Positions 55,649-63,322 of a stretch of DNA of 64,000 nucleotides are shown here, piece after piece. A program made the translations under genes and the position numbers. The DNA is from Streptomyces sp. SID12488 (GTDB lineage: Bacteria; Actinomycetota; Actinomycetes; Streptomycetales; Streptomycetaceae): assembly GCF_010548275.1 (NCBI RefSeq), contig NZ_JAAGLT010000028.1:1-64000 (forward strand), given 5' to 3'. The notes beneath the pieces are model-generated. The model had not been told where the DNA came from, did not search any database, and worked only from the letters and a program-made list of their open reading frames with translations. The stretch's first letter is position 1. The number at the start of each line of letters is the position of its first letter.

Positions 55649-55748
55649 GCCGCACACCTCCTGGTGACTGATCCATCGCGTACGCCGCACGTCCCCGGCG
55701 GCAGGATGTCAACAGTGTCGTGACGCCTCCCGAGGCCCGCTGAGCGCT

Positions 55749-55763
55749 TTCCGCTGACCGGGA
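55749..55763. promoter_or_regulatory. Operator-like motif III, copy 4 (upstream of hsaA)
   Basis: TTCCGCTGACCGGGA differs from copy 1 at one base. A CCGCTGAGCG half-like site lies just beside it (55737-55746). On the minus strand a TTGACA (55707-55712) follows, which may be the hsaA -35. Confidence 0.6.
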
Positions 55764-55773
55764 CAGGCCCGCC

Positions 55774-57207
55774 TCAGCGGGTGACGCGGGGCCGCAGCGC
55801 GGCGGTGGAGCGGCCCTTGAGGGCGGAGAACCACACGCCGGCGCCGTAGGCGAGGTCGTCGAGCCGGCGGGCGACGCCGTAGCGGAGCGGGTCGAGTGAA
55901 CCGTCACCGCGCCGGTACTCAAGTGCGATGTCGGCCAAAGCGGCGACCGCGGCGGCCCGGCGCATCCGCCGGGACACCAGGCAGCCGGCGGCGGTGAGCG
56001 GCCACCAGTGCCGGGTGAGCAGCGCGGAGGTCTGTGCCAGGGTGGCGAGCGCGCCGTTGCCCGCGAGCGGCACGGCCAGCCGGTACGGATGCCGGGTGCC
56101 GTCGAACTTACGGCCGATGCGCAGGACGACGATCCCGAGAACGGTCCCCGCCACCGGCGCCGACCAGCGCCGTTGGGCGAGCAGCGCGGCGGCGAACACC
56201 GCGCTCCAGGGCGCGAACACGGCCGGTGCGATGAACTCGGGGTGCCGCAGGGCGAGCGGATGCGCCCCGGTCCCGTACACGGCCTTGCGCAGGAACCAGT
56301 CGCCCACCCGCGTCCGATGCTCGTGGGAGGCCCTGACGGCGGGTTCGTGACGCACCCGCTGCCCCGCCCGGACCAGCCGCCAGCACAGGTCGACGTCCTC
56401 CCCCACCCGCATCCCCTCGTCGAACCCGCACCCGTCCCGCAGCGCGTCCACCCGCGCCACCGCACAGGCCGTCGGCGCCCAGGAGACGGGCGTGCCGGGG
56501 CGCACGAGGGCCGGGTGGGCGCCGAGGTCGAGGGAGGACCGGGTGTTCTCGTACCGCTCGATCCAGTTCGTGGCGTCGCTGGTCAGCCCGGTGATGCGGG
56601 GTACGGCCATGGCGACCCTGGGATCGGCGAAGTGCCGGAGCAGGGTCGGCACCGTGTCGGGGTCCAGCACGATGTCGGAGTCGGCGAGGACGACGTACGG
56701 CGTGTTCACATGGCGGAGGCCGGCGTTGCGCGCACCGGCGGGGCCTGCGTTCGTGTCCAGGGCGACCAGGCGGGCGCCGTACCGAGCGGCGACGGCCGCC
56801 AAGGCCGCCGGGTGCCGCGAGGCGTCGTCGACCACGATCACGGGAGGTCCCGTGCCGCCCATACCGCCTGTACCGCCCGTACCTCCTGTGCCGATGCTGC
56901 GCAGCAGCCGCTCCAGTTGACGCGCACGGTCGCGGACCGGGATCACGACCGTGTACCGGGGGTCGGGCGGCAACGGCAGCGAGTCGACGACGGGATGTGC
57001 CATGCCGCGGTCGATCAGCCGGTCCGCGAGGAGCGCGCTCGCCTTGTCCCGTACGGGAACTGTCCGGCCGACGAGGAGTCCGCGGGCCCGTGGCGTCAGC
57101 CGCAGCAGCCGGGTGGGGAACCCGCCGACGAGCGCGCGACCACCGTCGATGACCTTGGTATGCCGGTCGAACGCGACGACCACGCCGACTCCGACGGGAA
57201 GCGTCAT
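55774..57207 (-). CDS. mftF: Mycofactocin system glycosyltransferase
   Basis: The protein has 477 residues, starting in overlap with the mftE end. It is a GT2-type glycosyltransferase: YTVVIPVRDRARQLERLL, then VVDDASRHPAAL, VVLADSDIVLDPDTV and EDVDLCWRLVRAGQRV. A hydrophobic C-terminal half suggests membrane association. MftF adds a beta-1,4 glucan chain to premycofactocin. A GTGGTGGTGGMGGTG loop near residues 106-120, coded by five nine-base repeats (56849-56893), interrupts the nucleotide-binding domain. Confidence 0.92.
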   Translation of the reverse strand: MTLPVGVGVVVAFDRHTKVIDGGRALVGGFPTRLLRLTPRARGLLVGRTVPVRDKASALLADRLIDRGMAHPVVDSLPLPPDPRYTVVIPVRDRARQLERLLRSIGTGGTGGTGGMGGTGPPVIVVDDASRHPAALAAVAARYGARLVALDTNAGPAGARNAGLRHVNTPYVVLADSDIVLDPDTVPTLLRHFADPRVAMAVPRITGLTSDATNWIERYENTRSSLDLGAHPALVRPGTPVSWAPTACAVARVDALRDGCGFDEGMRVGEDVDLCWRLVRAGQRVRHEPAVRASHEHRTRVGDWFLRKAVYGTGAHPLALRHPEFIAPAVFAPWSAVFAAALLAQRRWSAPVAGTVLGIVVLRIGRKFDGTRHPYRLAVPLAGNGALATLAQTSALLTRHWWPLTAAGCLVSRRMRRAAAVAALADIALEYRRGDGSLDPLRYGVARRLDDLAYGAGVWFSALKGRSTAALRPRVTR

Positions 57208-57935
57208 CGGCGTACGGTCCCGGGCCGGCGGGCCGGATCAGCGAGGCGGCCCCGCTCGTCCACCGTCCACGCGCCGATCCGGCGGACCGCGGCCGACACC
57301 ATCGCGTCCATCGTCCGGCGGCCCTCCTCGGCCGAGGCCCCGGCGGGATCGCCGAGCACGCCGGAGGGCGAGACCGCGCGGACTCCGTGGGCCACGAGGT
57401 CCGGCAGGAGGTCGGTCAGAGGGCGCGTGTCGCCCGCGAGGGCCGCGCCGAGCCGTACGCGCTCCGGGTCCAGGTGCAGCATCAGGGAGGTCTCCGTGCG
57501 GCCGGCGTGCGCGTCGCCGCCTGGTGTCCCGCAGCCGGTCCAGGCGATGTCGTGGCCTTCGGCGCGGAGTTGACCGAGGGCTGTGTCGAGGCTGGCGGTG
57601 TTGCCGCCGTGGCCGTTGACGAACACGACGTGGCCCGCCCACAGGGAGAGGGAGCGCGTCAGTTCCACGACCACCGCGCGCAGCGCCTCGTGCCCGATCG
57701 AGACGGTCCCCGGGAAGTGCGCGTGCTCGCCGCTGGCTCCGTAGGTGACCGGCGGTGCCACCCACGACCCGGGCAGGGCGTCCGCCGTGCGGTGTACGAC
57801 GGCACGCGCGACGACGGTGTCGGTGTCGAGCGGCAGATGCGGGCCGTGCTGCTCGGTGGACCCGACCGGGACGAGGACCAGCGCACCGGACGGTACGGCC
57901 GACCAGACGGCGTCAGCCAGGACGTGGGCCGCCAT
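57204..57935 (-). CDS. mftE: Mycofactocin precursor peptide peptidase (creatininase family)
   Basis: The 243-residue creatininase-family metal peptidase has metal ligands in VPVGSTEQHGPHLPLDTDT and GDAHAGRTETSLML, plus VFVNGHGGNTASLD. MftE cleaves the modified MftA to release the Val-Tyr-derived core. It starts two bases after the mftD stop and overlaps mftF by four bases. The frame and length fit the family. Confidence 0.93.
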   Translation of the reverse strand: MAAHVLADAVWSAVPSGALVLVPVGSTEQHGPHLPLDTDTVVARAVVHRTADALPGSWVAPPVTYGASGEHAHFPGTVSIGHEALRAVVVELTRSLSLWAGHVVFVNGHGGNTASLDTALGQLRAEGHDIAWTGCGTPGGDAHAGRTETSLMLHLDPERVRLGAALAGDTRPLTDLLPDLVAHGVRAVSPSGVLGDPAGASAEEGRRTMDAMVSAAVRRIGAWTVDERGRLADPARRPGTVRR

Positions 57936-62488: not shown

Positions 62489-62535
62489 GCAGTTGTGGGC
62501 GGGACCGTTGAACCCCCGTTCGGTACAGCGCCCTA

Positions 62536-62572
62536 CAAGGGGCGCGGGGAACTGCGCGACCAGCCACGACGG
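62536..62572. repeat. Streptomyces intergenic repeat, copy 6 (partial)
   Basis: AAGGGGCGCGGGGAACTGCG followed by CGACCAGCCACGAC is the same core as in copies 4 and 5. It lies between the converging mftG and mftR genes. Confidence 0.65.
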
Positions 62573-62623
62573 CGCCGCACCGAACCGACAACCCCTCGCA
62601 GCAGTTCTCCCGCCGAACATGGG

Positions 62624-63322
62624 TTACGGACCGGGAAACGCCCCGTCGAACCCAATGGCGAGCTGCCGCATCGCCTGATCCAGCAGCGCGCCCAGACTCG
62701 CCTCCTCGTCCTCCAGCCAGTGCTCGTAGGCGGCGATACACGCGGCCAGAGCGGCATGCCCCAGCAGCCGCGGCAGCAGGTCGGACACCGGCCGGCCCAT
62801 GCGCCGCGCGGCGAACTCCGTGACGAGCGCCCGCCACGTCGTGTAGCGCACGGTCGAGTCGGCATGGAGCGTGGGCACACGCAGGATCAGCGTCATCCGC
62901 TGCCGGTGCCAGGGCACCACCGCCGGGTCGAAACGGTTGAACTCGACCACCGCGCCGCGCAGCGCGTCCATCATCGGAGCGGCTGGGTCGGTCGCCGCCA
63001 GCAGGTGCTCGAGCCTCACCAGCTGGTCCTCGAAGTCGCCCCACACGAGGTCGTTCTTGGAGGCGAAGTAGCGGAAGAAGGTACGTCGGCCGATGCCTGC
63101 GGCGGCAGCGATGTCGTCGACAGTCGTCGCGTCGAAGCCCTGCCGGGCGAAGAGCTCGAAGCCCAGGCGTTCGAGAGCGGCCCGCGAGGTGACCCGAGGC
63201 CGGCCCGTACGGGTCGCCCCTTCCCGGGCGTCACCGCCCGCCGGGTACTCCGCCGACCGCACCCCAGCCGCTCCGCCCGCCACGCTCTCCCGCCGTCCCG
63301 TGTCAGCAACCACACCGCACAT
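62624..63322 (-). CDS. mftR: TetR-family regulator, MftR-like
   Basis: The protein has about 232 residues. The helix-turn-helix is clear (LERLGFELFARQGFDATTVDDIAAAAGIGRRTFFRYFASKNDLVW), and the C-terminus fits the mycofactocin-linked TetR group. MftR in mycobacteria represses mft and is released by long-chain acyl-CoA. The start is uncertain: ATG at 63322 or 63325 has only a weak ribosome site. It faces mftG across the partial repeat and is divergent from a CoA-binding protein gene. Position supports the symbol, sequence only moderately. Confidence 0.75.
   Translation of the reverse strand: MCGVVADTGRRESVAGGAAGVRSAEYPAGGDAREGATRTGRPRVTSRAALERLGFELFARQGFDATTVDDIAAAAGIGRRTFFRYFASKNDLVWGDFEDQLVRLEHLLAATDPAAPMMDALRGAVVEFNRFDPAVVPWHRQRMTLILRVPTLHADSTVRYTTWRALVTEFAARRMGRPVSDLLPRLLGHAALAACIAAYEHWLEDEEASLGALLDQAMRQLAIGFDGAFPGP

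Follow-up and report, generated by a model that had tools for sequence, protein, structure and literature searches.

We analysed a 64,000-nucleotide stretch of Streptomyces sp. SID12488 (contig NZ_JAAGLT010000028.1, positions 1 to 64,000; the window), in which a complete mycofactocin (mft) operon stands beside homologues of the ring-cleavage genes hsaA and hsaB, and two short-chain dehydrogenases/reductases (SDRs) of the mycofactocin-coupled family TIGR03971 lie among further hsa-like genes. These genes probably form an island for the catabolism of a polycyclic isoprenoid, terpenoid or steroid-like, with the mft operon as its cofactor supply and the two SDRs as clients. Gene identities, conserved linkage, co-occurrence, a shared operator and the replacement of the linked operon by a distant mft locus were established by computation, and on this comparative evidence the functional coupling of mft and the ring-degradation island appears well supported. 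The substrate, the order of the reactions and the electron flow we infer. No description of an mft–hsa island was found in the open-licence literature searched. The island bears on the role of mycofactocin beyond mycobacterial ethanol and simple-alcohol metabolism; the link to cholesterol once proposed for it in M. tuberculosis was found to stem from ethanol used as solvent (PMC6529628). Because cofactor synthesis, the re-oxidizing enzyme and the only two strong client candidates are joined in a single conserved block, the question of clients becomes tractable.

The mft operon adjoins hsaAB

A reading made earlier from the window's sequence alone (the sequence-only reading) had placed a full mftABCDEF operon, mftG and an MftR-like gene at 55649–63322, abutting hsaAB. 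Profile searches of the window proteins bear this out, since every one of these genes exceeds its NCBIfam cut-off (given below as bit score/cut-off; strands as + or −). The precursor gene mftA (60652–60798, −; 48 amino acids; TIGR03969, 46.7/25) encodes the canonical C-terminus SIDGMCGVY, which is kept in 20/20 compared loci (19 others and the window). It is accompanied by mftB, a chaperone (60359–60643, −; TIGR03967, 105/33), mftC, the radical S-adenosylmethionine maturase (59136–60362, −; TIGR03962, 655/265) and the only copy over the cut-off in the 9.6-Mb genome, mftD, the pre-mycofactocin synthase (57938–59143, −; TIGR03966, 698/471), mftE, a peptidase (57204–57935, −; TIGR03964, 313/172) and mftF, a glycosyltransferase (55774–57207, −; start at ATG 57207 or GTG 57183; TIGR03965, 396/280). 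The glucose-methanol-choline oxidoreductase MftG (60941–62488, +; TIGR03970, 428/387) is expected to re-oxidize the reduced cofactor, and mftR (62624–63262, −; TIGR03968, 273/225) encodes a TetR-type regulator. Only 125 bp separate the mftF stop (55774) from the hsaA start (55648), so that hsaAB (53898–55648) lies just outside the mft span.

The mftA–F, mftG and mftR set is identical to that of the clusters described by Haft (2011, PMC3023750; 2017, PMC5264612), in which TIGR03971 SDRs with an insertion at the NAD (nicotinamide adenine dinucleotide) site also occur and SDR genes likewise lie near mft. Unlike in those clusters, 35–43 kb separate the SDRs here from mft; they are embedded in a complete ring-cleavage island, whose operator they have in many relatives, and the mft operon has a separate one.

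Conservation of the island and replacement of its mft operon

A scan with HsaA reached 16 loci, in 13 named Streptomyces, Actinobacteria bacterium OK074 (of the same genus as the window genome), Nocardia vinacea (79% identity) and Rhodococcus coprophilus (54%). All 16 genomes contain mftC, and most Streptomyces loci have mft next to hsaA. Several Streptomyces have the island, of ∼ 60 kb, in collinear form, so the arrangement is no peculiarity of a single genome. Co-occurrence was counted in 393 Streptomyces genomes, with an hsaA orthologue defined by at least 76% identity. MftC is encoded in 27/393, namely in 10/10 genomes with an hsaA orthologue versus 17/383 others (Fisher p = 3.9e-13, a significance inflated by related genomes), and the two genes are at most 5 kb apart in 8 of the 10. 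Eight genomes with distant HsaA homologues (58–61%) lack both mftC and any TIGR03971 SDR over the cut-off. The linkage is thus conserved in other Streptomyces, and in these counts hsaA orthologues never occur without mft; of the two findings that would have gone against the sequence-only reading, SDRs below the family cut-off and an island common without mft, its SDRs still functional, neither was seen. One genome (G175, contig C1, ∼ 8431000–8437000) holds an island remnant in which the hsaA frame is broken at residue 327 and mftD is split; no TIGR03971 SDR over the cut-off was found in that genome.

S. fulvoviolaceus (G004) and S. cylindrosporus (G015) keep a conserved, collinear island from which the linked mft operon is missing. 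Both species carry mft elsewhere in the genome, with MftC identities of only 82% and 77% respectively. In phylogenetic trees their HsaA nests in the clade of linked loci, and their MftC falls outside it; trees with their MftC placed in the linked clade are rejected (approximately unbiased test, p 7e-80), and those with their HsaA kept out of it are rejected weakly (p 0.03). In S. fuscichromogenes the linked mft (L016, 7352–10000) has decayed through a deletion from inside mftD to the end of mftF, with loss of mftE, and its linked mftG is truncated, and an intact second mft locus lies on another contig. In a further genome (G291) the orthologous mft operon adjoins a PtmU3-like gene and a P450 gene, and the same contig (C21) carries, ∼ 80 kb or less from mft, a divergent form of the hsa/kstD set together with two TIGR03971 SDRs (∼ 459000–507000). 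With another mft locus present wherever the linked copy is gone or decayed, and with this divergent set near mft, the linked operon is dispensable, and mycofactocin supply apparently is not. That the two species without a linked operon have a distant locus is a separate line of evolutionary evidence for the island's dependence on the cofactor.

Two SDRs are candidate mycofactocin clients

The two SDR genes in which mycofactocin-coupled hallmarks had been noticed among the hsa genes both pass the TIGR03971 profile check: SDR1 (17503–18315, −) scores 357.9 bits and SDR2 (19901–20764, +), divergent from the SDR1 operon, 326.8 bits, against a cut-off of 300. Both have the NAD-region insertion and the Ser-Tyr-Lys triad, and the insertion is missing from four other SDRs of the island. 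In solved relatives the TIGR03971 insertion buries NAD (PMC5264612). The nearest solved structure to SDR2 is carveol dehydrogenase (3pxx). The 9.6-Mb genome encodes no further TIGR03971 protein and no TIGR03989 alcohol dehydrogenase over the cut-off. Given the single mftC, SDR1 and SDR2 are by elimination the leading candidates for mycofactocin clients among the families searched, which did not include iron-type alcohol dehydrogenases. SDR1 orthologues (84–99%) occur in 8 Streptomyces genomes, and mft is present in 8/8. A further SDR gene of the window (8157–8690) has an apparent frameshift, its halves matching TIGR03971 weakly in different frames.

A common operator appears to connect the SDRs with ring cleavage

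The gap between mftF and hsaA contains a palindromic operator, GTCCCGGTCAGCGGAAA (55748–55764, −), recognized by motif conservation and present before hsaA in 15/15 loci, including the two without linked mft and that of Nocardia vinacea. A matrix was built from the hsaA sites alone and then applied to other intergenic regions; for background we used random 180-bp stretches of the same loci (true sites included), with a 95th percentile of 9.4. The region between hsaE and kstD (12703–12719, with a second, weaker copy at 12740–12756) scores 18.0–20.7 in 14/14 genomes with both genes. A probable site between hsaD and hsaC (16215–16231) scores at least 10.8 in 16/16 genomes. Between the two SDR operons the score is 14.6–18.4 in 8/15 Streptomyces and 16.6 in Nocardia vinacea; the window's own copy (19786–19802) is degenerate, at 7.8. 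Further from the hsa and SDR genes, intergenic regions of the island score at most 11.9. The palindrome common to hsaA, hsaE/kstD and, in 8/15 Streptomyces and Nocardia, the SDR operons is new. It ties the SDRs to ring cleavage, and in about half of the relatives they appear to belong to the ring-cleavage regulon.

The mft genes appear to be controlled separately from the island operator. The mftA–mftG promoter is without the island motif and has instead, upstream of mftA, an MftR-type operator with the core GGCA-N5-TGCC (60842–60858, −), kept in 9 Streptomyces loci and with no other good match within the window. As in Mycobacterium, where the MftR operator is T-N2-GGCA-N5-TGCC-N2-A (PMC8728441), mftR is present and the site lies upstream of mftA with an identical core; unlike there, the outer A of the consensus is not retained. 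Since an operator of its own precedes hsaAB downstream of mftF, and mft has an MftR-type one, the island is probably several transcription units rather than one. A single mft–hsaAB unit was also considered; the conserved operator in the gap makes simple read-through less likely. Of the physical integration proposed by the sequence-only reading, the joining of cofactor synthesis, MftG re-oxidation and client SDRs in one conserved block stands, and common transcription probably does not belong to it.

Ring-cleavage genes and possible substrates

The oxygenase component of an hsaA-like phenol hydroxylase (54467–55648, −; NF045629, 373/450) has 2or0 as its nearest solved structure (506 bits, versus 282 for 3afe) and is encoded next to an hsaB-like flavin reductase (53898–54470, −; NF045630, 143/230). 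An hsaC/bphC-like extradiol dioxygenase (16333–17205, +) is below the cut-off with both models (HsaC, 286/450; BphC, 290/366), as is an hsaD-like C–C hydrolase (15304–16173, −; 269/400). Because HsaA–D are all below equivalog cut-offs, the hsa names hold for them only loosely. The profile search also found an hsaE–hsaG–hsaF group (hydratase, acylating aldehyde dehydrogenase and aldolase; 9789–12639, −), in which the aldolase (558/286) and acetaldehyde dehydrogenase (465/282) exceed their cut-offs and the hydratase (280/350) is below. A KstD-like flavoprotein (12931–14532, +) matches the KstD structures 8jbz and 4c3x with 439 bits and is below the NCBIfam cut-offs. Aligned to 8jbz, it keeps the Tyr/Gly motifs, whose residues we take to be catalytic.

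The label of a steroid ring-degradation island, given by the sequence-only reading, finds no support in these scores: besides sub-cut-off HsaA–D and KstD, the KstR match is marginal and the window has no KshA. For the same reasons we rejected an assignment as a steroid cluster by gene names. In the window's own genome the best KshA match reaches 97 bits, and a KshA_C match on contig C128 is only a distant Rieske protein. KshA is absent outright from 5/9 island-bearing Streptomyces tested; the other four and the window genome have a relative at only 90–97 bits, where true KshA scores 288–315. A published survey of steroid degraders treats KshA as mandatory (Bergstrand 2016, PMC4810484). The 9,10-seco clusters for cholesterol and cholate of Rhodococcus and Mycobacterium in that survey have homologues of HsaA–G and KstD in common with the island, which differs from them by lacking KshA, by key proteins under equivalog cut-offs and by including mycofactocin and PtmU3/DitZ-type genes.

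PtmU3/DitZ-type proteins and the SDR1 operon

The SDR1 operon is headed by a gene for a PF04909 protein whose nearest solved structures are DitZ and the monooxygenase PtmU3 (18580–19725, −; DitZ 8uyr, 254 bits; PtmU3 6omp, 142 bits). There follow in tight order a small protein of 86 residues (18323–18583, −) with no Pfam or NCBIfam match, 75% conserved in Nocardia vinacea, SDR1, and lastly a ferredoxin (17300–17488, −; PF13459, 56.6 bits); SDR2 is divergent. The whole module, from ferredoxin to SDR2, is intact in Nocardia vinacea. A second PtmU3-like PF04909 protein (45869–47146, −) has 6omp as its top PDB match (125 bits), and a cytochrome P450 (35955–37157, −) is nearest to a CYP125 reconstruction, CYP101J2 and P450cam.

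Both PF04909 proteins keep the six metal-ligand positions of the pattern D-x-H / H / E / D-x-x-H, which is described for AibH2, the metal-binding residues of which are reportedly conserved in PtmU3 (PMC7782822, PMC10811679); we infer that they are oxygenases. Family and ligand pattern are common to PtmU3, AibH2, SfbO (PMC10811679, PMC7782822) and DitZ (PDB 8uyr). Unlike those systems, the island proteins have no Rieske neighbour and are found instead with a ferredoxin and a mycofactocin-coupled SDR. With the monooxygenase homologue heading the SDR1 operon and SDR2 divergent from it, the module suggests that a terpenoid- or steroid-like substrate is first hydroxylated and then oxidized in a mycofactocin-coupled step. 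In diterpenoid biosynthesis PtmU3 acts as a hydroxylase and takes CoA (coenzyme A)-linked substrates (PMC7782822), and a diterpenoid- or triterpenoid-like substrate is for this reason at least as likely as a steroid.

Proposed pathway and alternatives

In the model we favour, the PtmU3/DitZ-type oxygenases and the P450 would put hydroxyl groups on the substrate. The two TIGR03971 SDRs, in which NAD is expected to stay bound, would turn the alcohols into ketones and pass the electrons to mycofactocin, and MftG would re-oxidize the reduced mycofactocin, feeding the respiratory chain. Aromatization and cleavage of one ring would fall to the KstD-like enzyme and the HsaA–G homologues, and acyl-CoA enzymes would complete the degradation. 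The mft operon would be the island's cofactor supply, usually travelling with it and replaceable by another mft locus in the cell. The earlier suggestion that the cofactor serves alcohol oxidation within this pathway is retained, given the operator shared by SDRs, hsaA and hsaE–kstD and the invariable company of hsaA and mft; its steroid pathway is not. Several points weigh against the model. A third SDR of the genome that has the insertion (278 bits, C172:254916) might also act as a client. The operator of the SDR operons scores only 7.8–11.2 in 7/15 Streptomyces, the window among them, and the co-occurrence counts include related genomes. Finally, 24/44 Streptomyces with a TIGR03971 SDR over the cut-off are without mftC, some with SDRs near 400 bits. 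This count conflicts with the 'only with mycofactocin' rule in the literature, and it makes family membership too weak as proof of mycofactocin dependence.

That count is also what would favour a loss of mycofactocin dependence in SDR1 and SDR2, with use of exchangeable NAD(P). We regard such a loss as very unlikely, as both keep the NAD-burying insertion (PMC5264612) and SDR1 orthologues are confined to mft-positive genomes. Somewhat less improbable, and still unlikely in our judgement, is that mft is a mere genomic neighbour which serves general alcohol oxidation, as with ethanol in mycobacteria, and inherited its place beside hsaA by descent. A neighbour of this kind would fit the 17/27 mft-positive Streptomyces without the island, the MftR-type operator that mft has in place of the island operator and the ethanol origin of the mycobacterial mft phenotype on cholesterol (PMC6529628); it is harder to reconcile with co-occurrence in 10/10 genomes, with the distant mft locus of the species that have no linked one, and with the lack, in the window genome, of any other dehydrogenase over the cut-off in two main client families. 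As first proposed, the substrate might instead be a conventional steroid (sterol, androgen or bile acid) broken down through a 9,10-seco pathway of divergent type, an alternative that we consider doubtful. The complete HsaA–G set, the conserved motifs of the KstD-like enzyme and the top PDB matches of HsaA, HsaC and KstD, which are steroid enzymes or paralogues, speak for it. The KshA scores and sub-cut-off HsaA–D and KstD speak against it, as does the failure to recognize ipdAB in the window, to which the search for these genes was confined.

Within the favoured model of a mycofactocin-supplied catabolic island, the absence of KshA suggests an as yet unrecognized way of opening a polycyclic ring system. 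Tentatively, we put forward a KshA-independent route for polycyclic isoprenoids, in which dinuclear oxygenases of the PtmU3/DitZ type or the P450 might replace the Rieske hydroxylase, the SDRs might be obligatorily mycofactocin-coupled in converting alcohols to ketones, and mycofactocin might be dedicated to the pathway. If this were true, mycofactocin would be a dedicated catabolic cofactor of one pathway and not a cofactor of general alcohol oxidation.

Candidate regulators and further palindromes

A KstR regulon acting through the TetR protein at 14637–15206 was rejected, its KstR match being marginal (67 bits versus a cut-off of 280). A candidate regulator for the island operator is an IclR-family protein (8812–9534, −), whose position is conserved. 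Between the IclR gene and hsaF (9740–9777) the palindromic motif GTACCGCTCCCCGGAAG faces its reverse complement, with starts 21 bp apart. A perfect palindrome, TTTCCGGTGCACCGGAAA, lies between the convergent hsaC and ferredoxin genes (17238–17255) and is not conserved among close relatives.

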